Source: Thalassomonas sp. RHCl1
GTDB lineage: Bacteria > Pseudomonadota > Gammaproteobacteria > Enterobacterales > Alteromonadaceae
Assembly: GCF_947387555.1 (NCBI RefSeq)
Contig: NZ_CANDNZ010000002.1
Coordinates: forward strand, 310,001 to 374,000
Direction of reading: 5' to 3'
Length of the DNA stretch: 64,000 bases
The first letter of the stretch is position 1, and every line of letters starts with the position of its first letter. Made by a program: the position numbers and the translations under genes. Under the pieces are notes generated by a model. The model made no database searches. It worked only from the letters and a program-made list of their open reading frames with translations, and was not told the DNA's origin. Positions 29,592-42,633 of the stretch are shown piece after piece.

Positions 29592-29954
29592 ATGACCAAA
29601 ATATTGGTTGTGGATGACTCAAATTCTATCCGAGACATGGTGAGCTTTACCCTCAAAGGGGCGGGTTATGAGACGGTTGAAGCAAGAGATGGCCGGGAAG
29701 GACTCAATACCGCGCAGGGAGGGGGGTTTGACCTGGTGATCAGTGATGTCAATATGCCCAATATGGACGGCATTTCTTTGTGCCAGGCCCTTCGGGAGTT
29801 ACCCGCCTTTAAATTTACCCCTATTTTAATGCTGACCACGGAAAGCTCCGGAGATATGAAGCAGCGGGGCAAGGCGGCCGGGGCAACCGGCTGGCTGGTG
29901 AAACCCTTTAATCCTGAAAAATTGTTAGCAACCATTAAAAGGGTTGTTCGGTAA
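29592..29954 (+). CDS. cheY: CheY-type response regulator
   Basis: 120-aa single receiver domain. Acidic pocket VVDDS (D8-D9), phospho-acceptor Asp52 in VISDVNMPNMDG, Thr/Ser in MLTTESS, Lys in LVKPFNP. It closely follows CheY of the Pseudomonas/Vibrio Aer2 clusters rather than the flagellar CheY. AAGGAAG ribosome site. It lies six bases before cheA, so its phospho-donor is the adjacent kinase. In related systems this CheY does not control flagellar rotation. Confidence 0.93.
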   Translation: MTKILVVDDSNSIRDMVSFTLKGAGYETVEARDGREGLNTAQGGGFDLVISDVNMPNMDGISLCQALRELPAFKFTPILMLTTESSGDMKQRGKAAGATGWLVKPFNPEKLLATIKRVVR

Positions 29955-29960
29955 CTTATT

Positions 29961-32060
29961 ATGAGTGTCGACCTGTCACAATTTATTCCGACTTTCCTTG
30001 AAGAAAGCTTTGAGGGATTGGCGTTAATGGAGTCCAGCCTGTTGTCACTTGAGGTGGATGATAATGAAACCATCCACAGCATTTTTCGGGCAGCGCATTC
30101 AATCAAGGGAGGTGCCGGAACTTTCGGTTTTGATAAAGTCACCGAATTTACCCATCTGGTGGAAACTTTATTGGATGAAATGCGCGATGGCCGCCGGGTA
30201 ATCGCCTCAGCAGACATAGAATTATTACTTGAGTCGGTTGACTGTATACGCCTGCTGATAGAGTCCGCCCGGGATCAATCCGGTTATGATGAAGCCAAGG
30301 TGGCGCAAACCTCACAGGCCTTGTCAAAGAGCCTGTCACAGGGAGCAAGTTTACCCGGCGCCGAAAATACGCCCGAATCAGAAGGGGAAGCTGAACCGGA
30401 TGCGGTGCAATGGCAGATCAGTTTTATACCTGGCCATCATTTGGTGAAAACCGGCAATGATCCCTTATTGCTCTTTAATGCCTTGGCAGATCTGGGGCCG
30501 CTTGAGCTCAGCGCCCAGGCCAGTGAACTGCCGTCCCTGTCGGATATGGATCCGCAAGAGTTATATTTGAGTTGGCACCTGGTATTAACCTCGGCGGCGA
30601 GTGAAGCTGAGATCCGGGAAGTGTTCGAGTGGGTGGAAGATGAATGCCAGTTAGAACTGGCCCAGTTAAGCGGGCAAGGAAAACAAGATAAGGAGAGTTG
30701 CAACTCTCCTCCTGACGTAACCACAAGCGGTGAGCAAGTCACCGCAGAAGAACTTGCCGAACCGACAACCATAGCTGCTGCAGATAAAAGTCCGGAGAAA
30801 AAGCCGGAGAAGGCCCAGGTTAAAAATAAGCAAGATGCCGGCTCCATTCGGGTCGGGGTCGATAAGGTGGATAACCTGATCAATCTGGTCGGGGAGTTAG
30901 TGATCACCCAGTCAATGTTATCCGAGTTAGGCAATGACTTTGAGCTTTCCAAGCTTGAACGTTTAACCTCCGGCCTTGAACAACTGTTGCAAAATACCAA
31001 AGAGCTACAGGAAAGTGTGATGCGTATCAGGATGTTGCCTATCAGCTTTGCCTTTAACCGCTTTCCACGTCTGGTGCATGATTTATCGAAAAAAACCGGT
31101 AAAGCGATAGAACTTGTTATTAATGGCGAGCAAACCGAACTGGATAAAACCGTGATGGAACAAATCGGCGATCCCCTGGTGCATCTGGTGCGCAATGCCG
31201 TAGATCACGGCATAGAGCCGGCGGAGATCCGCAAGGCCAAGGGCAAGCCGGAGCAAGGGACGATAAAACTCGATGCCTATCATTTAGGCGGCAACATCGT
31301 TATCGAAATCAAGGATGACGGCGGCGGCATCAATAAAGAGGTTGTGCTCAATAAAGCGATAGATAAAGGCCTGGTGGAAGCAAGCAGCAACCTGAGTGAA
31401 AGCCAGATCTTTGATTTGATCTTTGAGCCGGGATTTTCAACCGCCAAGGAGCTTAGCGATATTTCCGGACGCGGCGTTGGCATGGATGTGGTGAAAAAGA
31501 ATATCCAGTCGCTGGGGGGAAGGATCCAGATAGAATCTGAGCAGGATAAAGGTTCGACCTTCAGGGTCAACCTGCCGTTAACCCTGGCGATACTCGACGG
31601 CCAGCTGGTCAGGGTAGGCAGTGAAATTTATGTGATCCCGCTTATCGCTATCGTGGAGTCCTTACAGGCAAAAGCCGAGCTGATTAACCGGGTTTCCGGT
31701 GACATGCTGTTATATCGCCTCAGGGAAGACAATGTTCCGGTATTACCGATTTATCAATTGTTCAGTTTACCCGCCGATACCACAGAAGTTGAAAATTCAC
31801 TACTGGTGGTGGTCGAAGCCGACGGACAAAAGGTGGGGTTAATGGTGGATGATTTGTTGGCGCAGCAGCAAGTGGTGATCAAAAGCCTTAAAGATAATTA
31901 TCAGCAGGTGGACGGGATCTCGGGAGCAACCATACTCGGGGATGGTTCGGTCGCCATGATATTGGATATACCGGGCATGATCCAGCTGGCTATGAAAAGC
32001 GCGCAAAAAAACCAGGCACAGCATTATTCCGCTAACGTCCTGGCAGGAGAAACGGTGTAA
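29961..32060 (+). CDS. cheA: Chemotaxis histidine kinase CheA (Aer2-cluster type)
   Basis: 699-aa CheA. P1 Hpt domain with His46 (FRAAHSIKGGAGTFGF); a P2-like CheY-docking segment (~residues 150-235; WQISFIPGHHLVKTGNDPLL); an acidic linker; P3 dimerisation (~290-355; IRVGVDKVDNLINLVGELVI); P4 ATPase with HLVRNAVDHGIE (N box), IKDDGGGIN (G1) and GRGVGMDVVKKN (G2); P5 CheW-like domain (~540-680). All catalytic elements are intact. It overlaps the next cheW by one base (TAATG). The protein should phosphorylate CheY (29592) and CheB (38181). Confidence 0.95.
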   Translation: MSVDLSQFIPTFLEESFEGLALMESSLLSLEVDDNETIHSIFRAAHSIKGGAGTFGFDKVTEFTHLVETLLDEMRDGRRVIASADIELLLESVDCIRLLIESARDQSGYDEAKVAQTSQALSKSLSQGASLPGAENTPESEGEAEPDAVQWQISFIPGHHLVKTGNDPLLLFNALADLGPLELSAQASELPSLSDMDPQELYLSWHLVLTSAASEAEIREVFEWVEDECQLELAQLSGQGKQDKESCNSPPDVTTSGEQVTAEELAEPTTIAAADKSPEKKPEKAQVKNKQDAGSIRVGVDKVDNLINLVGELVITQSMLSELGNDFELSKLERLTSGLEQLLQNTKELQESVMRIRMLPISFAFNRFPRLVHDLSKKTGKAIELVINGEQTELDKTVMEQIGDPLVHLVRNAVDHGIEPAEIRKAKGKPEQGTIKLDAYHLGGNIVIEIKDDGGGINKEVVLNKAIDKGLVEASSNLSESQIFDLIFEPGFSTAKELSDISGRGVGMDVVKKNIQSLGGRIQIESEQDKGSTFRVNLPLTLAILDGQLVRVGSEIYVIPLIAIVESLQAKAELINRVSGDMLLYRLREDNVPVLPIYQLFSLPADTTEVENSLLVVVEADGQKVGLMVDDLLAQQQVVIKSLKDNYQQVDGISGATILGDGSVAMILDIPGMIQLAMKSAQKNQAQHYSANVLAGETV

Positions 32061-32584
32061 TGAATATACAAGAGCTGGCCCAGGATGTTCCCCGGGTAGG
32101 TGATAACGATATCGAAGGCATAGATTTTATTACCAGTGGTGAGCAATATCTGACCTTTATCCTGGAGCAGGAACAATATGCCGTGGATATCTTATGCGTG
32201 GAAGAAATCAGGAGTTGGGAGCCGCCGACAAAAATTCCCAATTCACCGGAATATGTTAAAGGGGTGATCAATATGCGCGGCATTATTGTCCCCATTTTGG
32301 ATTTAAGGCTGAAGTTTAATATCGGCCAGCCCAGCTATACCGAAGTGACGGTAGTGATCGTCCTGACCCTGGAATCCGAACAGCAGTCCCGCACCATAGG
32401 TTTTGTTGTCGATGCGGTTTCGGATGTATTAAACGCCGATGAAAGCGATATTAAAAAGGCACCGGCCTTTGGCGGTTGTGTGCCCCAGCATTATGTCGAG
32501 GGGCTGGTAAATGTCGGGGATAATGTGGTGACTTTGCTTAATGTCCAGTCATTACAGGCACTGGAGCCGCACCAGCTGAACTAA
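32060..32584 (+). CDS. cheW: CheW coupling protein 1
   Basis: 174-aa CheW. An N-terminal tail of ~30 residues precedes the SH3-like fold: YLTFILEQEQYAVDILCVEEIRSW, then VKGVINMRGIIVPILDLRLKF, GFVVDAVSDVLN and YVEGLVNVGDNVVTLLNVQ. It links CheA P5 to receptor tips. Translationally coupled to cheA. A second cheW follows at once; Vibrio Aer2-type clusters also have two. Confidence 0.93.
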   Translation: MNIQELAQDVPRVGDNDIEGIDFITSGEQYLTFILEQEQYAVDILCVEEIRSWEPPTKIPNSPEYVKGVINMRGIIVPILDLRLKFNIGQPSYTEVTVVIVLTLESEQQSRTIGFVVDAVSDVLNADESDIKKAPAFGGCVPQHYVEGLVNVGDNVVTLLNVQSLQALEPHQLN

Positions 32585-32657
32585 AAAGTATTGTATCTTG
32601 TCGGTAGGCACAGATGAGCCGGTATTGACATAAACGCAATTTGATAAAGGACATGTC

Positions 32658-33146
32658 ATGATGGAAAAAGAGCAAGAATATCTGACCTTTGTGCTGCATG
32701 GGGAAGAGTTTGGCGTTGATATTTTATGTGTCCAGGAAATCCGGGTATGGAGTGCATTAACCCAGCTGCCTAATAAACCCGCTTATATTAAAGGGGTCAT
32801 TAATTTACGCGGTGTCATTATTCCCATCATAGATTTACGCCTGCGCTTTGGTAAGGAGCCGCTGGAATATAATGATCAGACAGTCACCATCATTTTAAGT
32901 AATCATGACAAGCAAAACCCTATGGTGGTGGGGATTGTCGTAGATGCCGTTTCTGAAGTGTATAAATTTAACAGCCGGGCGATCCGTCCGGCACCGTCCT
33001 TTGGTCAGGTGGTTGATAATTGTTTTTTAAAGGGGCTGGCATCAATAGATGACAAATTGATTATTTTATTGGACTCGAAAGCCTTGCTTGATCATGAAGA
33101 ATTATATTGTACTGAAAAGGTAGTGCTTGGCCCGGTTGCAGGTTAA
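32658..33146 (+). CDS. cheW: CheW coupling protein 2
   Basis: 162-aa CheW paralogue: YLTFVLHGEEFGVDILCVQE, YIKGVINLRGVIIPIIDLRL, GIVVDAVSEVYKF, FLKGLASIDDKLIILLD. It lacks the N-terminal tail of the first CheW, so it is the more standard of the pair. It lies 73 bp after the first. Possession of two may let the array mix soluble and membrane receptors or set ring composition; this is inference. Confidence 0.93.
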   Translation: MMEKEQEYLTFVLHGEEFGVDILCVQEIRVWSALTQLPNKPAYIKGVINLRGVIIPIIDLRLRFGKEPLEYNDQTVTIILSNHDKQNPMVVGIVVDAVSEVYKFNSRAIRPAPSFGQVVDNCFLKGLASIDDKLIILLDSKALLDHEELYCTEKVVLGPVAG

Positions 33147-33231
33147 GCGTAAATAAAATAATAAATGCTGGTGAAGTCGTACAGTAAGGACAGAGCTTAC
33201 CGTAATCATTAATGTGTAAGGAATACAGGTT

Positions 33232-36200
33232 ATGACTCCCAAACAGATGACTTTAGTCCGGCAGAGCTGGAAAAAAGTACTACCTATGGCCCCTAAGGCG
33301 GCAGATCTTTTTTATCAAACCTTGTTTGAATTATCGCCTACTCTTAAATCCTTGTTTAAAAATGATATTTCTGAACAGGGAGGGAAATTAATGGCGATGC
33401 TCGACAGCGCGATTAAATTACTTGATAAGCCGGATAAGTTGCTGCCGGCGGTACAAAAACTAGGTCAGCGCCATTTAGCTTACGGTGTTGAGCCCCGGCA
33501 TTATGACCTGGTTGGCGAGGCCTTATTAACAACACTTGCCACAGGCCTTGGAGATGAGTTTACCCCGGCGGTAAAGAAAGCCTGGATTGAGGTGTACCAA
33601 ACCCTGTCTTCGACCATGATAGCCGCGGCCGAGGCCTTAAAAGCACAAGAAGCGCAAGAATTAGCAGAGGTGGAAGCCGCAGCGGACAGGCAGAGGGTGA
33701 AAGCGGCCAATAGTGCTGAATCTGCCGGGGACAGCTCAGCGACTACCGCCGTGAAAGAGCGAAAAACGGTTAATACGGGAAAAGCGAAAACCACTAAGCC
33801 CAAGAGGAAGGCGACTTCTTCTGCAAAGAAATCTGCGCAATCTTCTAAATCAACTCAGCATAAAGAGCCAGCCATGGACAGCCAAACCAACGAAACCGAA
33901 GAACTGGCGGAACGCCTGCAAGGCGCGCTGGAGCAGTCAACTACCGCTATTGTTATGATTGACCGGGACTTTATCATCACCTATGCCAATCAGGCGACAC
34001 TGGATTTATTGAGCCGGCACGAACAGGTTTTTGCCCAAAAGTGGCCGGGCTTTAAAGCCGATAAATATGATGTCATCGGCTCCTGTATTGATGGCTTTTT
34101 GTCCCGGGCCGAGCATCAGTGTCAGTTGCTTAACGATATCAGCAATTTACCCTATCAAACTGAAATTGAGATTGGTGAGTTAACGTTTGAGCTTAATGTC
34201 ACCGCCATTGAAGACGGCAAAGGGGTGTATATAGGTAACTTATTGGAGTGGTGCGATATTACCCAGATCCTGGCCCGGCGCTCTAAAGCCGTGCAACTGC
34301 AGGGGGCGGTTGATCAAAGCGGTACCGCCTGTATCATGATCGACCGGGACTTTACTATCACTTATGCCAATGACGCCACCATCAGGTTATTAAAACAACA
34401 TGAAGCGACTTTTGCGAAAAAATGGCCGGGCTTCAAAGCGGATGCCGATGCCCTGATCGGCAGTAATATCGACGGCTTTCATACCAATCCGGCGCACCAA
34501 CGTAAGTTACTGGGTGATGTCAACAACTTACCCTATCAAACAACTATCACCATAGAAGATTTAAAGTTTGAGCTTAATGTCACCGCTATCCTCGATAATG
34601 GCGGCAATTATATCGGCAATTCACTGGAATGGCAGGATGTAACAGAGGCTTTGGCCCAGAAAAATAAAGCGGTGCAACTGCAAGGCGCCGTGGACCAAAG
34701 CGGCACCGCCTGTATCATGATCGACCGGGACTTTACCATCACCTATGCCAATGAGGCGACCCTGAGATTATTAAAGCAGCATGAAGCCACTTTTGCGAAA
34801 AAGTGGCCGGGTTTTAAAGCGGATGCCGATGCGCTGATCGGCGCCAATATCGACGGCTTTCATGCCAATCCGGCACATCAGCGTAAGTTACTTGGTGATA
34901 TCAATAATTTACCTTATACCACAACCATCACCATAGAAGATCTAAAGTTTGAACTTAATGTCACCGCGATTATCAATAGCGACGGCGATTATATCGGTAA
35001 TTCCCTTGAATGGCAGGATGTCACGGCGGCTCGGCAAAATGCCGTGCAGGTTGGTCGCCTGACTTCTGCGGTGGAAGGCATGACCACCAATTTGATGATG
35101 GCAGATATAGACGGCAATATCGTCTATGCCAATCCCGCGGTGACCGCCATGTTAAAACGTAGGGAAAGCCAGCTACGCAGCGTGTTGCCTTCCTTTAATG
35201 TCGATACCCTGATCGGCACTAACTTCGATACTTTCCATAAAAATCCGGCGCACCAGAAAAACTTGTTGGCGAATCCGGCAAACCTGCCATATGCCACAGA
35301 AATAACCGTCGCGGGGCTAACCTTCTCCCTGACCGGTATAGCTTTGCTCGATAGTGAAAATAACCATTTGGGCACGGCAGTACAGTGGCTGGATTTAACC
35401 GAACAAAAAGATGCGCAAAACCAGGTAGAAGGCTTGATCAGTGCTGCCATTAACGGTGAGCTGGACCGGCGCATCGACACCGATGCCTACGAAGGCTTTA
35501 TGAAAGCCCTCGGCGATAACATCAATAACTTGATGAATGCCATCGTCGAGCCTGTCACCGATGCCATAGATGTAGCTCAGGCGCTGGCCAACGGCGATCT
35601 CACCAATGCCATGGACGGTGAATACCAGGGAGAATTCCTGGCGCTGGCCAATGCCATGAACGGCTCGATTGAAAACCTGAGCAAGATGGTAGATGAAATC
35701 CGCAATGCCTCCACCAGTGTGTTTGAGGCCGCGCGGGAGATTGCCGCCGGTAATAATGAATTAAGTCACCGCACCGAATCCCAGGCATCGAGCCTGGAAG
35801 AAACCGCTTCGGCGATGGAAGAGCTCACCAGCACGGTACAGCAAAATGCTGAAAATAGCACAGAGGCCAGTAAGCTCTCGGGCTCGGTGATGGCAAAAGC
35901 CAGTAACGGCGGTGCTGTGGTGAAAAATGCCATCGAAGCCATGAGTGATATCAATAAATCCAGTAAAAAAATTGCCGATATTATCAGTGTTATTGATGAG
36001 ATTGCTTTCCAGACCAACTTGCTGGCCCTTAATGCCGCGGTTGAAGCGGCTCGCGCCGGTGAGCAGGGACGCGGTTTTGCCGTGGTCGCCGCCGAAGTGC
36101 GTAACCTGGCGCAGCGCTCTGCCGGCGCCGCCAAGGAAATTAAAGGCCTGATCAATGACAGTGTTGAGGCGGTGGGCCAGGGCACTAAACTGGTGGACGA

Positions 36201-36585
36201 AACCGGGCAGACCTTTACCGAGTTGGTGACCGCCATCGAAGAAGTCAGCAATATGATCGGCGATATCGACAGTGCCGGTAAAGAGCAGAGTGCCGGTATC
36301 GGTGAAGTCAGTGCAGCGGTGAGTCAGATGGATGAAATGACCCAGCAAAATGCCGCACTGGTGGAAGAAGCGACCGCCTCGAGTAAGGCGATGGAAGAGC
36401 AGGCGCAATCATTACTCGAACAGGTCGATTTCTTTAATAACGGTGAACAACCAAGTGCGGATGTCGGCAGAAGCCGTGTTGGGGAAGTGGTAAGAAAGCC
36501 TCCGGCAAAAGCCGTAGTGAAACCGGACACCCGGCACAGGCAGCGCCCGGTGACACAAACCGATAAAGAGTGGGAAGAGTTCTAA
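33232..36585 (+). CDS. Soluble globin-PASx4-HAMP chemoreceptor (Aer2 position)
   Basis: 1117-aa chemoreceptor with no membrane segment. Residues 1-~135 are a globin of flavohaemoglobin/single-domain type: Tyr28 (B10 position, DLFYQTLF), Phe42 (CD1) and proximal His81 (GQRHLAYGV). Residues ~140-215 are an Ala/Lys/Ser-rich linker. Four PAS-like domains follow with a 127-residue period (about 228-350, 354-478, 481-600, 605-725); the second and third are almost identical. HAMP-like helices (~730-830) lead to a methyl-accepting signalling domain whose tip ([21 protein letters not shown], near 925) is canonical. The protein ends EWEEF, a xWxxF pentapeptide like the CheR/CheB tether and like GWEEF of Pseudomonas Aer2. 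It sits exactly where aer2 does in che2 clusters. Predicted role: oxygen or redox input to CheA. Confidence 0.9.
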   Translation: MTPKQMTLVRQSWKKVLPMAPKAADLFYQTLFELSPTLKSLFKNDISEQGGKLMAMLDSAIKLLDKPDKLLPAVQKLGQRHLAYGVEPRHYDLVGEALLTTLATGLGDEFTPAVKKAWIEVYQTLSSTMIAAAEALKAQEAQELAEVEAAADRQRVKAANSAESAGDSSATTAVKERKTVNTGKAKTTKPKRKATSSAKKSAQSSKSTQHKEPAMDSQTNETEELAERLQGALEQSTTAIVMIDRDFIITYANQATLDLLSRHEQVFAQKWPGFKADKYDVIGSCIDGFLSRAEHQCQLLNDISNLPYQTEIEIGELTFELNVTAIEDGKGVYIGNLLEWCDITQILARRSKAVQLQGAVDQSGTACIMIDRDFTITYANDATIRLLKQHEATFAKKWPGFKADADALIGSNIDGFHTNPAHQRKLLGDVNNLPYQTTITIEDLKFELNVTAILDNGGNYIGNSLEWQDVTEALAQKNKAVQLQGAVDQSGTACIMIDRDFTITYANEATLRLLKQHEATFAKKWPGFKADADALIGANIDGFHANPAHQRKLLGDINNLPYTTTITIEDLKFELNVTAIINSDGDYIGNSLEWQDVTAARQNAVQVGRLTSAVEGMTTNLMMADIDGNIVYANPAVTAMLKRRESQLRSVLPSFNVDTLIGTNFDTFHKNPAHQKNLLANPANLPYATEITVAGLTFSLTGIALLDSENNHLGTAVQWLDLTEQKDAQNQVEGLISAAINGELDRRIDTDAYEGFMKALGDNINNLMNAIVEPVTDAIDVAQALANGDLTNAMDGEYQGEFLALANAMNGSIENLSKMVDEIRNASTSVFEAAREIAAGNNELSHRTESQASSLEETASAMEELTSTVQQNAENSTEASKLSGSVMAKASNGGAVVKNAIEAMSDINKSSKKIADIISVIDEIAFQTNLLALNAAVEAARAGEQGRGFAVVAAEVRNLAQRSAGAAKEIKGLINDSVEAVGQGTKLVDETGQTFTELVTAIEEVSNMIGDIDSAGKEQSAGIGEVSAAVSQMDEMTQQNAALVEEATASSKAMEEQAQSLLEQVDFFNNGEQPSADVGRSRVGEVVRKPPAKAVVKPDTRHRQRPVTQTDKEWEEF

Positions 36586-36588
36586 TAT

Positions 36589-37464
36589 ATGTTGTGCGAT
36601 GAACCACGTGATAATGCATTAACACTAAATCAGCAAGAATTTGCTTTTATTTGCCGGTATGTGCATGAGCATGCCGGCATAGTGCTGAGTGAAGGTAAAC
36701 GGGAAATGGTCTACCGGCGCTTTTCTCGCATTATCCGGGAGCGCCGGTTATCTTCTTTTAGCGAGTATTGCCATTTATTGCAGCAAAACCCTTTGCAGGA
36801 GCAAAATTATTTTATTAATGCCATTACCACAAACCTGACCAGTTTTTTTCGCGAACAGCATCATTTTGATTACCTGCGCCAGCATGAACTGCCGGCGCTG
36901 ATCCGAAACGGCGGCCATGAAAAGCACATGCGCATCTGGTCGTCGGCATGCTCTACCGGTGAAGAGCCCTATAGCATCGCCATCACCTTAATCCAGGCAA
37001 TGCAAGGGCTGTTGTCGCAATGGGACGTGAAGATACTGGCCACCGATATCGACAGTAATGTCTTGGCCAAAGCAAAACAGGGGATATACGCCAAGGATAA
37101 GCTCGACGATCTGAGCAGTGACATCAAAGGGCAATATTTTAAACAAGGCACAAGAGAAAACTCGGGCAAGGTCAGGGTGGCCCAATGCCTGTCGAAACTT
37201 ATTACCTTTAAGCAGCTGAACTTATTGCATCAATGGCCGATGAAAGGGCTTTTTGATGTGATTTTTTGCCGTAACGTCATTATTTATTTTGATAAGGATA
37301 CCCAGCAAGACTTATTTGCCCGTTATTACGACTATTTAAAACCCGGGGGCTTATTGATCCTCGGTCATAGCGAAAATTTAGGCTCGTATCAAAGTGATTT
37401 TGACAATGTCGGTCGCACTATTTTTCGTAAACCCGCGTTATCAGAACAGGCTCAAGTGGTGTAG
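36589..37464 (+). CDS. cheR: CheR methyltransferase
   Basis: 291-aa CheR, which methylates receptor glutamates with SAM. An N-terminal helical domain (FAFICRYVHEHAGIVLSEGKR; ITTNLTSFFREQHHF) precedes the Rossmann domain with the SAM motif WSSACSTGEEPYSIAI and LATDIDSNVLAKA, then FDVIFCRNVIIYF and LKPGGLLILGHSE. It lies three bases after the receptor gene and should bind its EWEEF tail. It overlaps the cheD GTG by one base. Confidence 0.94.
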   Translation: MLCDEPRDNALTLNQQEFAFICRYVHEHAGIVLSEGKREMVYRRFSRIIRERRLSSFSEYCHLLQQNPLQEQNYFINAITTNLTSFFREQHHFDYLRQHELPALIRNGGHEKHMRIWSSACSTGEEPYSIAITLIQAMQGLLSQWDVKILATDIDSNVLAKAKQGIYAKDKLDDLSSDIKGQYFKQGTRENSGKVRVAQCLSKLITFKQLNLLHQWPMKGLFDVIFCRNVIIYFDKDTQQDLFARYYDYLKPGGLLILGHSENLGSYQSDFDNVGRTIFRKPALSEQAQVV

Positions 37465-38129
37465 TGATTGTGGCGAGTGCGGCGAGAGTGGAAGTAGAGG
37501 AATGTTTACATAAATGTTTGCCAGAATTCACCCATATTAATCATTATTGGGATCGACAAAGGCAAATGGTGGTAGCGAAAATATTACCCGGTGAGTTTTA
37601 CATCACCACGGAAAATATTGCCATCGCGACCACCTTAGGCTCTTGTATTGCGGCCTGTATCTGGGATATGCGCACCGGGGTGGGGGGCATGAATCACTTT
37701 ATGCTGCCCCATACCCAAAAGGAAGCGGCGGAGGTCGATTGGGGACAAAGAAAGCGAATCGGTGATGCCACCCGCTATGGCAATTATGCGATGGAGCATT
37801 TGATCAACAAAATTTTAAGGCATGGCGGGCGAAGGTGTAACTTTCGCGCCAAGGTCTTTGGCGGCGGTAAGGTGTTAAAGCAAATGTCGGATGTCGGGCA
37901 AAGTAATATTGATTTTGTCCTGGGTTATCTCAAGGATGAAAATATCCGCATCGATAATGCCGATCTCGGGGGGGGTTATCCGCGCAAAGTCATTTTTGAG
38001 CCGGGTACGGGTAAGGCTTATATGAAACGTCTGGATAATTTACATAACGATACCATAGTGCGCCGGGAAAGAGACTATAAATATAAAATCGACCACCAGG
38101 CAGTGGGTGGAGATATTGAACTGTTTTAG
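37464..38129 (+). CDS. cheD: CheD receptor deamidase
   Basis: 221-aa CheD, glutamine deamidase of chemoreceptors. Catalytic Cys and His: TTLGSCIAACIWD and GMNHFMLP; the Thr-region FRAKVFGGG is also present. The start is GTG 37464, overlapping the cheR TAG; the N-terminal segment CLPEFTHINHYWDRQ is normal for CheD of this cluster type. The protein ends GGDIELF, an acidic -LF tail shared with two other island proteins. CheD in such clusters is required for signalling by the Aer2-type receptor. Confidence 0.93.
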   Translation: MIVASAARVEVEECLHKCLPEFTHINHYWDRQRQMVVAKILPGEFYITTENIAIATTLGSCIAACIWDMRTGVGGMNHFMLPHTQKEAAEVDWGQRKRIGDATRYGNYAMEHLINKILRHGGRRCNFRAKVFGGGKVLKQMSDVGQSNIDFVLGYLKDENIRIDNADLGGGYPRKVIFEPGTGKAYMKRLDNLHNDTIVRRERDYKYKIDHQAVGGDIELF

Positions 38130-38180
38130 TGCCCGGGTAAACAAACCGGCATTGAGCATTTTAGTAAAGGACATTACTAA

Positions 38181-39269
38181 ATGAACAAGATCAAAGTGTT
38201 AGTAGTGGATGATTCAATTACGATACGCAATATCCTCACCTCGATATTGGCACGGGAGAGTGAGATTGAGGTGGTCGGGGAAGCTGAAGATCCCTATGAT
38301 GCCCGGGAGAAAATCAAGCAACTCAATCCCGATGTCTTAACCCTGGATGTGGAAATGCCGAAAATGGATGGCTTGACTTTTCTTGCCAATCTGATGCGGC
38401 TGCGCCCTATGCCTGTGGTGATGTTATCGACCCTGACCACCAAAGGGGCCGATACCACGTTAGCTGCCCTGGAAACCGGCGCGGTAGATTACATCACTAA
38501 GCCCGATGCCGAGGCGTTAATGGCAGAGCAGGATAGTTTCAGGAAAACCCTGGTAACCAAACTTAAAGATGCGGCAGGTATTAATTTAAAAAACCTGAAA
38601 CTGAGTAAGAGTTTAACGGTAAAGCAAGATCTTCGGGAGCTGCCTTTTGCCGGCAGTGGACGCCGAAATCACCTGATTGCCATCGGGGCTTCTACCGGAG
38701 GTACGGAAGCCATTAAAAGTATTTTGATGCGTCTGCCGCCAACATCCCCTGCCGTGGTGATCACCCAGCATATTCCCGTGACCTTCAGTGCGCGTTTTGC
38801 CAGCCGCCTCAATGCCTGTTGTCCAATGGCGGTACAGGAAGCCCGCCATGGACAGAAAGTGCATCCGGGCAATGTCTATATTGCGCCGGGGGATAAACAT
38901 CTGAAAATAGAGCAAAGAGGCGGGGTTTTATTTTGTTTGCTTGAAGACTCTCCCGAAGTCAACCGGCATAAGCCGGCGGTGGATGTTTTGTTTGACTCCC
39001 TGTTGCCTGTTGCCGGCAATGTCCAGGCGGTGTTGCTCACCGGTATGGGGCAGGATGGTGCCCGTGGCATGTTAAATTTAAAACAGCAAGGGGCGAGGAC
39101 CTTGATCCAAAATCAGGCGAGCAGTTTGGTATGGGGTATGCCGGGAAAAGCGTATGCCCTTAATGCCCATACCGAGCAATATCCGCTGGGGGACATCGCC
39201 GCTACCTTACTTGATTTTGCTGCGCTTAAACGCGGTCAGATGAAGGAGGTATTAAATGTCAGTGAATAA
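38181..39269 (+). CDS. cheB: CheB methylesterase
   Basis: 362-aa CheB. Receiver domain 1-125 with phospho-acceptor Asp56 ([12 protein letters not shown]); linker; C-terminal esterase with the triad Ser in [11 protein letters not shown], His in [17 protein letters not shown] and Asp in [12 protein letters not shown]. Phosphorylation by CheA should activate demethylation of the island receptor. The end overlaps the next gene by 14 bp. Confidence 0.94.
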
Positions 39270-40530
39270 GTTATTACCTCAAGTACCGTTTTCTACCCTG
39301 TCTTTATCCGTTGTCGGGATTTTTGGCGTGGTACTCGCTTTGCTCAATATTTTTTTTATCGAACAGATCTTTCTTGATATTTTATTGTTAATCAGTTTGT
39401 TAGCCCTGTTTGCTCTGACATTGCGTAACAGTTTGCTGCAAAAAGTGTTATCGCCCGAATCGCTTGGCCAGGGGATGAAAACCGCAGGTGAACGGCAGGA
39501 TATCGGGGGGCAAACGGCTAAACAGGTAAATCAGCAGCCGAGCCAGCAGCTAAGGATACAGTCGGTGTTGGCGGATCTGAATAAATCCCTGTCGCAGGAA
39601 GTAGAGATCATAGGCAACGAAGTCAGGCGTACCAGTAGCGTGCTCAGTGACGCTATTTCCGGGGTCTCCGGCAGTTTTAAGGGCTTGCAGGAAATCAGTG
39701 ATGAACAGCAGCGCTTGTTTAATGAAATCGTCGACTGTAAGCATGACCCCGATGGCGGTCAGGTCAATGTTTTTGAGGCCTTTATTGATAATTCATGTCA
39801 GGTGCTGGATGATTTTGTCGAGGTGATAGTAAAAACCAGTAAGCAGAGCCTGGAAACCATGTACTTTATCGATGAAATGGCTAAGCAGTTTGAGCAGGTG
39901 TTTAATTTTCTCGGCCAGGTGGAGAACCTGGCAAGTCAGACCAATTTGCTGGCGCTAAATGCCGCCATCGAAGCGGCGCGTGCCGGTGAAGCCGGCAGGG
40001 GCTTTGCCGTTGTTGCCAATGAGGTCAGGGCGCTTTCCCTTAACTCCAGTGAATTAAACAACAATATTCGCCAGTCGATTAATCAGGTCCAGGGCATTAT
40101 CGGCAAACTCAGGGGGTCGGTTGAAGTGATTGCCTCTGCCGATATGAGCTCAACCCTGGAAGCCAAGGACAGGGTCAAGGACATGATGGTGCAGGCAGAA
40201 AGTGTCAGCCAGCAAACCCATGACACAGTCGATGAACTGGCGTCGCTCTCCCCTAAGCTCAATGAAAGAGTCTCTGTCGGTATACGCTCTTTGCAGTTTG
40301 AAGATTTAACCCACCAGATCCTCGATTCCGTCGGTGATAATCTGGGGCGTTTACAAGCCATTGCCGGGGAAATGACTCAAGTAGAGCACTCGGCTGAGCA
40401 TAATATTGACAGCCAGTTAAAGAAATTACAGTTATGTTGTCAGCAGGTATTTGAGCAAACGAAATCTGCAGACAAGCACCGCACCGTCGAACAGGCATCA
40501 ATGGAGGAAGGGGCCATTGATTTATTTTAA
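39256..40530 (+). CDS. Membrane mini-chemoreceptor with CheZ-like D-x-x-x-Q motif
   Basis: 424-aa receptor-like protein. Two hydrophobic helices at residues ~12-55 form a tight hairpin with no periplasmic sensor. A Gln-rich linker is followed by a short methyl-accepting signalling domain with a canonical tip ([21 protein letters not shown], then [17 protein letters not shown]). Past the tip, helix ~335-365 contains [13 protein letters not shown]: Asp350 and Gln354 have the spacing and context (F-x-D-L-T-x-Q) of the CheZ phosphatase site. It ends EGAIDLF. AAGGAGG ribosome site inside the cheB end. Similar membrane receptors follow cheB in Vibrio Aer2-type clusters. The role could be array anchoring, CheY-phosphate removal, or both. 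Confidence 0.82.
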
Positions 40531-40587: not shown

Positions 40588-40896
40588 ATGTCGATTGAAA
40601 AAATTGTTTCAGCAGATAATCAAAATGTTTCTATCGCGATTGAGGATAGGTTCGATTTTTCGTTACACCAAAAATTCAGGGAATCGTATGCCGATTGCGA
40701 TACTAACGGCACGACTTTTACCCTCAAACTGGATAAAACCAGTTATATGGACAGCTCTGCGCTGGGCATGATTTTATTGCTTAAAGATCATGCGGATAAA
40801 ATCTCCGGCAAGGTGATCATTAATAAGCCCAATGAAACCGTGAATAAAATCCTTGAGATTGCCCAGTTTCATCGCCTGTTGACCATAGAGCTGTAA
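40588..40896 (+). CDS. STAS anti-anti-sigma factor (HsbA-like)
   Basis: 102-aa STAS domain. The phosphorylation site region is SYMDSSALGMILLL with Asp55-Ser56-Ser57, matching classic SpoIIAA/HsbA. It lies three bases before the gene for a receiver-PP2C-kinase protein, its obvious partner. In Pseudomonas aeruginosa HsbA is phosphorylated and dephosphorylated by HsbR and, depending on state, binds FlgM or the cyclase HsbD. The same gene order (STAS, PP2C regulator, cyclase) here supports an equivalent switch. Confidence 0.87.
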   Translation: MSIEKIVSADNQNVSIAIEDRFDFSLHQKFRESYADCDTNGTTFTLKLDKTSYMDSSALGMILLLKDHADKISGKVIINKPNETVNKILEIAQFHRLLTIEL

Positions 40897-40899
40897 AGC

Positions 40900-42633
40900 A
40901 TGAATGCCATGGTTGAAAACCCGGATGCCAAACTTGCCCTGGTAGTCGATGACTCCGAGATGCAGTGTATGATATTAAAAAACCTGCTCATGGAGGAAGG
41001 TTATCGGGTGTTAACCGGCAATGACGGCGCCAGGGGGGTAGCTTTATATATTGAGCATTTACCGGATCTGGTGTTGATGGATATCAATATGCCGGTGATG
41101 GACGGTTATGAAGCGGCAAAACGTATTAAAAGCTTGTCGCCGAACAGCTTGGCCCCTTTGATCTTTATCACCAGCATGGACTCGGATCAGGCTTTTGTCG
41201 ACAGTATTGAAGCCGGCGGTGATGGGATTTTGACCCGGCCATTTTCTCCGGAGGTGTTTAAAGCCAAGATCAAATCCATTCAGCGGATCAGTAATTTGTA
41301 TAGCCAGGTGAAAAACTTGCAGCAAGAGCAGCAGCAAGATGCCGAGCTGGCAGAGCAAATTATGTCCGGGGTGATCGAGGCGAGAAATTTTGCCCTTGAC
41401 CGCATCGGCATTATCAAGCAGGCAGCGGCTCTGTTTAGCGGTGATATCCAGTTAACGGCGTTATGCCCCGGAGGCAATGTTAACGTGTTGCTGGGGGATT
41501 TTACCGGTCACGGCCTGCGCTCGTCTATCGGCGCTATTCCCCTGGCTGAAACCTTCAGGGTGATGACAAAAAAGGGGTTTTCCCTGCTGGAAATCATTGA
41601 GCAGATCAACCGGCAGTTATATGAGTTATTGCCGGTGGATTTATTTTGCTGTGTTTGTTGCGTCAGTATTTCCAGCCATGAGCGTTCTGCCTATGTGTTT
41701 AATGCCGGGTTGCCGGATACCTATATCTTCAACCACGAAGGAAAAATCAAGCATAAAATCACCTCTAACCATATTCCTTTAGGGGTGATGCCAAATCTCT
41801 TGCCGCAGGCCCAACTGCAGGTCTTTAGTGTCGCAAGCAACGACAGGGTGGTACTGATCAGTGACGGTATCCTGGAGGCGAGAAACCACCAGGGGGAAAT
41901 GTATGGTACCCGGCGCTTTGAATTTGCCGCCAAACAAGGCTTTTACCACGGAGATATTCCCGGCAAGGTCTTTGATGCCGTTGATGAGTTTTGTCAGGGC
42001 AGGCCGCAGGAAGATGATCTTTCCCTGATAGATATTCCCTGTCATGGCTGGGAGCAAGCGCCGGCACCGGATGAGGCTGCCCAAAGTATTGCCATCAGTG
42101 AAATGCATGATTTATATCTGGAGTCCGAGCCAAGCTGGAAATGGCAATTGAAGCTCACCGGCCAGCGCCTGGCGCTGGTAAATCCTGTGCCTATGGCGAT
42201 GGGACAAATCCAGGAAATAGAAGGAAACGGCGAGCACTGGAATAACATGTACAGTATTTTAACCGAGCTTTATGTCAATGCCCTGGATCACGGCATTTTA
42301 AGGTTAAATTCCGATCTGAAAAACTCGGCGGCCGGTTTTGCCCATTATTTTATGGTCAGGGAGTCGAGGCTGAAGAATTTAAGTAGCGGCATGATAGATA
42401 TCAGCTTGAGTTATCACCCGTTGCAAAGTGGCGGCAAGATGATCATCACCATAGCCGATGATGGTGCGGGGTTTGACCTGGCGGCCTTTTATGAACACCG
42501 CCTCAAGCTTAAACAAGCGGACAAGGTCATGTTATGTGGCCGTGGTATAGATCTGGTGCATCAACTGTGTGAAAAGCTTGAATATCTGGACGGTGGCAAT
42601 AAGGTGCAGGCCACTTATGTCTGGGCGAAGTAA
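40900..42633 (+). CDS. Receiver-PP2C phosphatase-anti-sigma kinase (HsbR-like)
   Basis: 577-aa three-domain switch. Receiver (1-~130) with Asp61 (LVLMDINMPVMDG). PP2C/RsbU-type phosphatase (~160-400) with metal-binding motifs LLGDFTGHGL, ISDGILEARN and EDDLSLID. C-terminal RsbW-like ATPase (~440-575) with N box ILTELYVNALDHG and G1 ITIADDGAGFD. All three catalytic centres look intact, so the protein can both phosphorylate and dephosphorylate a STAS partner, depending on receiver state. It lies three bases after that partner. In Pseudomonas HsbR has the same domains. The receiver input here is plausibly CheA or one of the hybrid kinases downstream. Confidence 0.9.
   Translation: MNAMVENPDAKLALVVDDSEMQCMILKNLLMEEGYRVLTGNDGARGVALYIEHLPDLVLMDINMPVMDGYEAAKRIKSLSPNSLAPLIFITSMDSDQAFVDSIEAGGDGILTRPFSPEVFKAKIKSIQRISNLYSQVKNLQQEQQQDAELAEQIMSGVIEARNFALDRIGIIKQAAALFSGDIQLTALCPGGNVNVLLGDFTGHGLRSSIGAIPLAETFRVMTKKGFSLLEIIEQINRQLYELLPVDLFCCVCCVSISSHERSAYVFNAGLPDTYIFNHEGKIKHKITSNHIPLGVMPNLLPQAQLQVFSVASNDRVVLISDGILEARNHQGEMYGTRRFEFAAKQGFYHGDIPGKVFDAVDEFCQGRPQEDDLSLIDIPCHGWEQAPAPDEAAQSIAISEMHDLYLESEPSWKWQLKLTGQRLALVNPVPMAMGQIQEIEGNGEHWNNMYSILTELYVNALDHGILRLNSDLKNSAAGFAHYFMVRESRLKNLSSGMIDISLSYHPLQSGGKMIITIADDGAGFDLAAFYEHRLKLKQADKVMLCGRGIDLVHQLCEKLEYLDGGNKVQATYVWAK

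Follow-up and report, generated by a model that had tools for sequence, protein, structure and literature searches.

Aer2-type chemoreceptors have been described in Vibrio cholerae, Vibrio vulnificus and Pseudomonas aeruginosa, and that of V. vulnificus has three haem-binding PAS domains (PMC13401364). In Shewanella oneidensis, the Che1 cluster encodes Aer2so, a receptor with two haem PAS domains, together with CrsA and CrsR (PMC9855816), and the CrsR-CrsA pair controls RpoS (PMC9855816; PMC6482189). Seven proteins that combine a globin, PAS domains and a methyl-accepting chemotaxis protein (MCP) domain were reported in 2018, including Cc_4972 of Corallococcus coralloides and representatives from Colwellia sp. 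MT41 and Glaciecola nitratireducens (PMC6194562). A further protein of this kind is encoded in a 64,000-nucleotide stretch of the genome of Thalassomonas sp. RHCl1 (contig NZ_CANDNZ010000002.1, positions 310,001 to 374,000 of the forward strand), referred to here as the window and numbered from its first letter. The open reading frame at 33232..36585 (+ strand) starts with ATG and encodes 1117 amino acids in a single frame without interruption. Judged from its predicted domains, its product is an Aer2-type chemoreceptor composed of a globin, a disordered basic linker, four PAS domains, a HAMP domain and an MCP domain. It is probably the globin-fused Aer2 of a che1/CrsA-CrsR system, in which one gene would give a long and a short receptor and the globin would be an accessory module.

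Domains and haem ligands of the receptor

In a first-pass annotation, made from the nucleotide sequence alone, this receptor was placed at the aer2 position and described as an N-terminal globin followed by four PAS-like repeats. The gene lies within a che cluster, and the four repeats were mapped to residues 226-345, 352-473, 479-599 and 606-725. A Pfam scan of the receptor identified Globin (PF00042, 68.2 bits, residues 27-129), PAS_8 in four stretches, HAMP_2 (residues 758-816; 35503..35679, +) and MCPsignal (residues 885-1037; 35884..36342, +). The whole protein scored 1246.8 bits against the NCBIfam Aer2 model NF041847 and passes its cut-off of 1200 with two stretches summed; the repeats help it to pass, because both stretches are counted, and the best single stretch (1070.3 bits) is below the cut-off on its own. 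The protein ends in the pentapeptide EWEEF (36568..36582, +), in which W1114, E1116 and F1117 are invariant across 11 aligned rows, and which we take to be a CheR/CheB-tether-like motif. The full-length AlphaFold2 model, built from 11 full-length rows, has a mean predicted local distance difference test score (pLDDT) of 63.4 and a predicted template-modelling score of 0.28; because of this low global confidence, it was used only for domain borders and for the disordered linker.

The globin domain occupies residues 1-133 (33232..33630, +), as delimited by Pfam, AlphaFold2, Foldseek and a residue table of 45 homologues described below. Residues 1-145 alone score 72.2 bits against PF00042 (cut-off 22), and their AlphaFold2 model (47 alignment rows) is helical throughout, with a mean pLDDT of 97.2. 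The top Foldseek match is Hell's Gate globin I (HGbI; 3s1i), with template-modelling scores of 0.86/0.95, a root mean square deviation of 1.1 Å and 39% identity. The pocket is formed by Tyr28 (B10), Phe42 (CD1), Gln49 (E7), Leu53 (E11), His81 (F8) and Tyr91 (G5), where the helix positions other than B10 and E7 are those that we presume to apply. Tyr28 and Gln49 align with Tyr29(B10) and Gln50(E7) of HGbI (numbering from PMC4476040). By sequence and predicted fold, the domain is an HGbI-like member of the single-domain globin group. The first-pass annotation had already recognized B10 Tyr, CD1 Phe and the proximal His81, all of which are present, and had assigned the domain to the single-domain/flavohaemoglobin group rather than to the HemAT type, as is borne out by the structure prediction and the profile comparison. 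A HemAT-type globin was rejected, the Protoglobin profile (PF11563, cut-off 25) scoring 18.0 bits on residues 1-145 and 12.7 bits on the whole protein; the sole Protoglobin match in the genome is a flavohaemoglobin-like frame of 397 amino acids (25.9 bits). A flavohaemoglobin proper was also rejected, as the Pfam scan of the receptor revealed no FAD/NAD reductase domain and the globin belongs to a separate clade. The flavohaemoglobin globins in the globin tree, eight sequences taken from the same order, are set apart in a clade of their own with a Shimodaira-Hasegawa-like approximate likelihood ratio of 100; the tree is based on 137 columns, and 54 of its 121 inner branches are open.

The last PAS domain, PAS4 (residues 606-725; 35047..35406, +), aligns along its length with the solved Aer2 PAS structures 6ceq, 3vol and 4hi4, including the haem-His motif FHKNPAHQ, the first His of which presumably corresponds to His234 of P. 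aeruginosa Aer2 (PaAer2). Its Trp is aligned in 3vol and 4hi4, and the 6ceq chain has Leu at that place. PaAer2 His234 is known to act as a haem ligand (PMC13401364), and a role has been described for the Aer2 PAS Trp (PMC9855816). Both residues are found in PAS2 (residues 352-473; 34285..34650, +; His417, Trp467), PAS3 (residues 479-599; 34666..35028, +; His544, Trp594) and PAS4 (His669, Trp719). PAS1 (residues 226-345; 33907..34266, +) has Trp340 only, with Leu290 (34099-34101) in place of the haem His. The same Leu is present in the nearest congener (genome G002), and the two others (G001 and G003) have His, suggesting that one haem was recently lost from the array. With haem ligands in three of its four PAS domains as well as in the globin, the receptor is predicted to hold four haems per chain. 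The earlier suggestion of two possible haem sensors was, therefore, correct as to there being several and too low as to their number, which may be as high as four (globin plus PAS2-4). PAS2 and PAS3 (34285-35028) are identical at 110 of 122 residues, which points to a recent duplication or gene conversion within the array.

The globin is connected to PAS1 by a linker (residues 134-225; 33631..33906, +). The last globin helix extends to residue 165 in the full-length model, and residues 161-225 are disordered, with block pLDDT values of 24-50. In homologues, the linker varies in both sequence and length. A Lys-rich segment is present at residues 169-212 (33736-33867), with 13 K/R and 2 D/E in 44 residues. 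This long Lys-rich linker is common to the four members of the window genus and resembles a nucleic-acid-binding tail; the linkers of most other homologues seen are much shorter. FrzCD provides a precedent for a DNA-binding cytoplasmic receptor.

Spread of the fusion and decay of the globin pocket

The distribution of the fusion was assessed in 395 genomes of the family, 162 of which match the Aer2 model with an E value of 1e-100 or better. The 41 best-scoring genomes (839.8 bits or more) all have a globin-derived N-terminus, although the fused gene is truncated at a contig end or a gap in three of them. Four lower-scoring proteins, each a long frame containing a globin match, bring the set to 45 proteins from 44 genomes, so there are at least 45 fused receptors; weaker members, above all receptors resembling those of G006/G109, may have escaped it. 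Eight lower-scoring receptor loci (G020, G409, G176, G247, G022, G134, G031 and G115) have che genes adjoining the receptor in seven cases, and no globin, STAS gene or full REC-PP2C gene was found among the matches listed for these stretches. A globin is likewise absent from ten unfused Aer2 receptors that belong to three further families of this order. In a genome scan, 13 loci among the best 80 of 166 relatives corresponded to fused genes (two of them cut), and the other 67 were frames of 132-291 residues from the start of the match. Bearers of the fusion include Colwellia metagenome-assembled genomes, Thalassotalea, Glaciecola pallidula and Alteromonadaceae M269, and the proteins of Colwellia sp. 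MT41 and G. nitratireducens listed in 2018 probably belong to the same fused family. A fusion unique to the window genome is ruled out by these fused homologues across the family, and a chance event or artefact by the occurrence of the same arrangement at 12 loci in 10 genera. The globin fusion is, thus, standard in this family. The first-pass annotation had called the combination of haem sensors unusual, which is true with respect to published descriptions of Aer2 but not within the family, where the globin fusion is the rule.

In a receptor tree from which the globin was left out, the 42 fused receptors form one clade relative to the 10 unfused ones, with support of 100/99; three genes interrupted by contig borders or a gap (G140, G207 and G285) were excluded from this tree and from the globin tree. 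Haem-PAS units are found in 41 of the 45 homologues, numbering two to seven per chain, and the haem His occupies the ligand position in 137 of 140 units (the exceptions being two Leu and one residue unread at a gap). The remaining four homologues have zero units matched by the haem-PAS profile. The largest array seen is that of G027 (locus L038, 7365-11681), a protein of 1438 amino acids with seven haem-PAS units and a globin, giving up to eight predicted haems per subunit.

The globin pocket (B10 Tyr, CD1 Phe, E7 Gln, F8 His, G5 Tyr) is intact in 34 of the 45 globins and decayed in the other 11. Ten of the latter lack both CD1 Phe and E7 Gln, and in G344 the only one of these positions affected is the proximal His, replaced with Arg. 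The proximal His is absent from five of the decayed globins (G004, G191, G168b, G109 and G344); loss of haem is uncertain in the other six, because a His is still present in the F8 column. On the receptor tree, the intact and decayed states require five changes, at least four of which are forced by well-supported branches; decay events were counted on this tree because ten decayed globins cluster as long branches in the globin tree. Haem-PAS units are present in seven of the 11 decayed forms and absent from four. For the globin, the ratio of non-synonymous to synonymous substitution rates (dN/dS) was 0.11, 0.56 and 0.29 in three close pairs with decayed pockets and 0.015-0.18 in five intact pairs; in the three decayed pairs, the ratio was 0.02-0.09 for the PAS and MCP portions, and a fourth such pair proved saturated. 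The decayed globins, therefore, look to be under selection that is relaxed yet not absent. Four relatives (L160, L042, L044 and L162; 762-1019 amino acids) combine a decayed globin with another type of PAS domain, with a QAVIEFNMDGT-like motif, and genome G168 has two clusters, one with a decayed globin and this other PAS type (L160) and one with an intact globin and haem PAS domains (L161).

The internal ATG of the linker

The linker contains a Met residue, encoded by ATG, in 45 of 45 homologues, at positions from residue 144 to residue 216. In the window receptor, this is Met215 (33874..33876, +), the putative start of a globin-less short Aer2 of 903 amino acids, which would hold three haems. 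The choice fell on the Met that comes first between residue 139 and PAS1, irrespective of its Shine-Dalgarno (SD) score; in the four proteins without haem-PAS matches it was sought before about residue 177, and one earlier Met, at residue 156 of G002, was excluded by hand. In 26 representatives with less than 60% identity across the 60 nucleotides 5' of the internal ATG, the Met is present in all 26, and at no other position from -12 to +12 do more than 50% agree on a single residue. Mean anti-SD pairing energy, calculated with an assumed 16S anti-SD sequence, was -5.04 kcal/mol at the internal ATG, -4.92 kcal/mol at the annotated start and -1.25 kcal/mol at 1139 other in-frame Met codons. A value of -4 or better is reached by 31 of the 45 internal sites, that of G041 having -6.3, and by 39 of the 45 annotated starts; among other Met codons, the share is 6.7%. 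The energy minimum at the internal ATG has the same offset as that of the annotated starts; the best of 16 other conserved Met columns reached -3.33, against -5.13 at the internal ATG, and none of 2000 codon permutations of the family set reached the mean energy of the internal site. Messenger RNA structure is also weak at this site: the folding energy of 45 nucleotides was -2.42 kcal/mol at the internal ATG and -2.31 at the annotated start, whereas 686 other Met codons gave -5.88.

Substitution patterns point in the same direction. In 11 close pairs, synonymous change in the seven codons 5' of the internal ATG amounted to 6.8 per 51.7 sites (0.131), against 0.36-0.38 in the globin (Fisher p = 0.0003) and 0.51 in the PAS domains, and non-synonymous change in these codons (0.091) was not reduced. 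Codon choice 5' of the ATG favours GAG for Glu (11 of 19, 6.0 expected) and GGA/GGG for Gly (12 of 18, 4.3 expected). The start of unfused Aer2 proteins falls no more than about 30 alignment columns away from the internal Met, in most cases upstream, and the ATG is retained in all 11 proteins with a decayed globin pocket. The evidence for an internal start lies in the whole homologue set rather than in single proteins, and at this level internal translation initiation is very probable.

Several observations weigh against this reading, most of all for the window itself. The annotated start is preceded by a good SD-like tract (AAGGA, 33218..33222, +; -6.1 kcal/mol), whereas the internal one has only AAAGAG (33862..33867, +), 6 nucleotides 5' of the ATG and identical in the window gene and three congeners, with an energy of -2.1 kcal/mol. 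Other in-frame Met codons of these four genes have means of -2.2 to -2.9 kcal/mol (-2.5 for the window gene), and the codon-permutation p values are 0.24-0.27. Across the family, 14 of 45 internal sites fall short of -4, and permutation p is below 0.05 singly in only 10 of 45 proteins. Synonymous change is low elsewhere too, at 0.27 from -15 to -8, 0.21 further upstream in the linker and 0.27 directly 3' of the ATG, and the comparison of the SD codons with the preceding eight gives p = 0.10; the constraint extends to the rest of the linker and the codons after the ATG and has no sharp border at the SD. Linker codons for Lys and Glu favour SD-like strings, an objection answered in part by the permutation control. 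GC content is 36% around the internal ATG, as opposed to 41%, from which part of the low folding energy follows, and globin dS is lower than PAS dS in most of the close pairs for which both could be computed.

The full-length receptor could, accordingly, be the sole product, the linker Met being a fossil start or a requirement of the protein itself and the SD-like tract a by-product of Lys, Glu and Gly codons. The weak internal SD of the window genus and the low synonymous change in the rest of the linker suit this explanation, and the short form is so far a prediction from sequence. It does not readily account for a Met that is invariant while agreement at every other linker position is 50% or less, for position-locked pairing energy combined with low mRNA structure, biased codon choice and a permutation result of 0/2000, for synonymous change that is low where non-synonymous change is not, or for the persistence of the ATG in every protein with a decayed pocket, and we consider it rather unlikely. 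We lean towards internal initiation, with a putative short product, in the window's own gene as well; in this genus, where AAAGAG is weak, the short form may be a minor product or one that is being lost.

Proposed role of the globin, likely cluster output and relation to known systems

The following scheme is proposed. An HGbI-type globin would have been fused once, in frame, 5' of aer2 in the ancestor of these bacteria, with retention of the ancestral aer2 start codon, such that one gene would specify a long globin receptor and a short globin-less one, and the two may mix within the same arrays. The haem-PAS array, which lies nearest HAMP and has three of its four units haem-competent by sequence, would be the main O2 switch, by likeness to Aer2, signalling through HAMP and MCP to CheA. 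The globin, on its flexible tether, would be an accessory gas-binding or contact module and most likely not a rigid switch, given the disorder of residues 161-225. That most homologues, including the window receptor, have strictly kept the pocket suggests gas binding, whereas repeated decay of the pocket with retention of the domain suggests a contact function, at least in the decayed lineages, and argues against a purely haem-based role. We would give an even chance to a more specific version, in which the gene makes two chemoreceptors (the globin long form and the ancestral Aer2 short form), the translation ratio sets the number of globins per array, and the haem-less globin of several lineages persists in a regulatory capacity, on the pattern of RsbR.

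Three other roles of the globin have to be weighed against an accessory one. A direct second O2 sensor, acting on the receptor by way of a helical linker in the manner of HemAT, in which coupling of globin to output is known (PMC13401364), would fit the 34 intact pockets and the extension of the last globin helix to residue 165; it is unlikely given the disordered stretch that follows, the variable length and sequence of the linker, and at least four pocket decays in receptors that were otherwise retained. A tethered NO/O2-handling enzyme or gas buffer, shielding the PAS haems and receiving its reductase from elsewhere, would be consistent with B10 Tyr, E7 Gln, F8 His and G5 Tyr, with the Glu of the window globin at the H23 column and with the very high O2 affinity of the related HGbI (PMC4476040). 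The absence of a reductase domain from the Pfam scan of the receptor, the variability of H23 among homologues (N, D, K and others) and, again, the repeated decay make this quite improbable. Finally, the globin could be mainly a module for protein contact or dimerization with optional haem, for which RsbR is the precedent cited in PMC4476040. An N-terminal MTPKQI..VQ.SW-like motif is recognizable in decayed forms, and the dN/dS values below 1 in three decayed pairs are in keeping with such a function. This seems doubtful, if possible, as the main role, because the pocket is strictly retained in 34 of 45 globins and in six of the 11 decayed ones the F8 column is still occupied by His; the decayed globins, moreover, lie on long branches, and their fold is deduced from sequence.

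The gene order of the cluster, established with Pfam, is CheY-CheA-CheW-CheW-receptor-CheR-CheD-CheB-MCP-STAS-REC/PP2C/ATPase, all on the + strand. The CheY-like, CheA and two CheW genes (29592..33146) are present at 12 of 12 relatives' loci, and the order from CheY to CheB, including the receptor, is identical at these 12 loci (10 genera). CheR, CheD, CheB and a second MCP-domain protein follow (36589..40530); in the last of these (39256-40530), found at nine of the 12 loci, MCPsignal was the only domain detected. The next gene encodes a STAS protein, a CrsA-like anti-sigma antagonist (40588..40896), and adjoins the cluster at 11 of 12 loci. It is followed by a REC-SpoIIE(PP2C)-HATPase_c_2 protein, a CrsR-like partner switch (40900..42633), which is the sole full-length copy in the genome and has counterparts at nine of 12 loci; of the three without, the stretch ends first in two (L033 and L038) and the gene was not seen in L040. 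A STAS gene, thus, stands beside a REC-PP2C-GHKL gene within a che cluster, the arrangement by which a CrsA-CrsR pair is recognized. The likely output, by analogy, is a STAS/REC-PP2C-ATPase partner switch acting on RpoS, the Shewanella counterpart of which frees or holds this sigma factor.

If this scheme is correct, a domain fusion was gained without loss of the older protein, through retention of the old start codon, and a globin has become part of a chemosensory system that probably acts on the general stress sigma factor rather than on the flagellum. The homologues also constitute a natural series, with two to seven haem PAS domains and an intact or decayed pocket, in which the contribution of each haem to O2 sensing could be tested, and each of the claims is testable with one gene. 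A literature search, with subscription papers mostly outside its scope, yielded no report of an internal start in a chemoreceptor or Aer2, of an HGbI-type globin in such a receptor, of an adjoining haem-PAS array or of pocket decay. Nor did any relevant work on Aer2 in these genera, or on internal starts alongside CheA, turn up among the entries listed.

The production of a shorter product from an internal start has a parallel in chemotaxis in the long and short forms of Escherichia coli CheA; CheA is a kinase, whereas the window protein is a receptor. HemAT and other globin-coupled sensors also have an N-terminal haem globin on an MCP, but their globin is of the Protoglobin family and they consist of globin, linker and signalling domain, without a PAS array (PMC13401364). 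HGbI and HGbRL of Methylacidiphilum infernorum belong to the same globin group, with no D helix and with B10 Tyr and E7 Gln; HGbRL has its globin fused to a Roadblock/LC7 signalling-type domain, in place of the chemoreceptor found here (PMC4476040). The proteins listed in 2018 were described on the basis of Bac_globin (PF01152), and the relevant part of that paper makes no mention of haem-PAS residues, linker, pocket decay or an internal start (PMC6194562). The Aer2 receptors of Vibrio cholerae, V. vulnificus and Pseudomonas aeruginosa share with the window receptor the PAS domains with haem His and Trp, HAMP and MCP, to which the latter adds the N-terminal globin, a long linker, four PAS domains (two to seven in relatives) and a putative internal start. 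The closest likeness in gene content is to the Aer2so/Che1/CrsA-CrsR system of S. oneidensis, with its CheD, second MCP, anti-sigma antagonist, three-domain regulator and haem-PAS receptor. Aer2so differs in having two PAS domains, and the word globin is absent from the paper that describes it (PMC9855816), and the window cluster differs in having two CheW genes.

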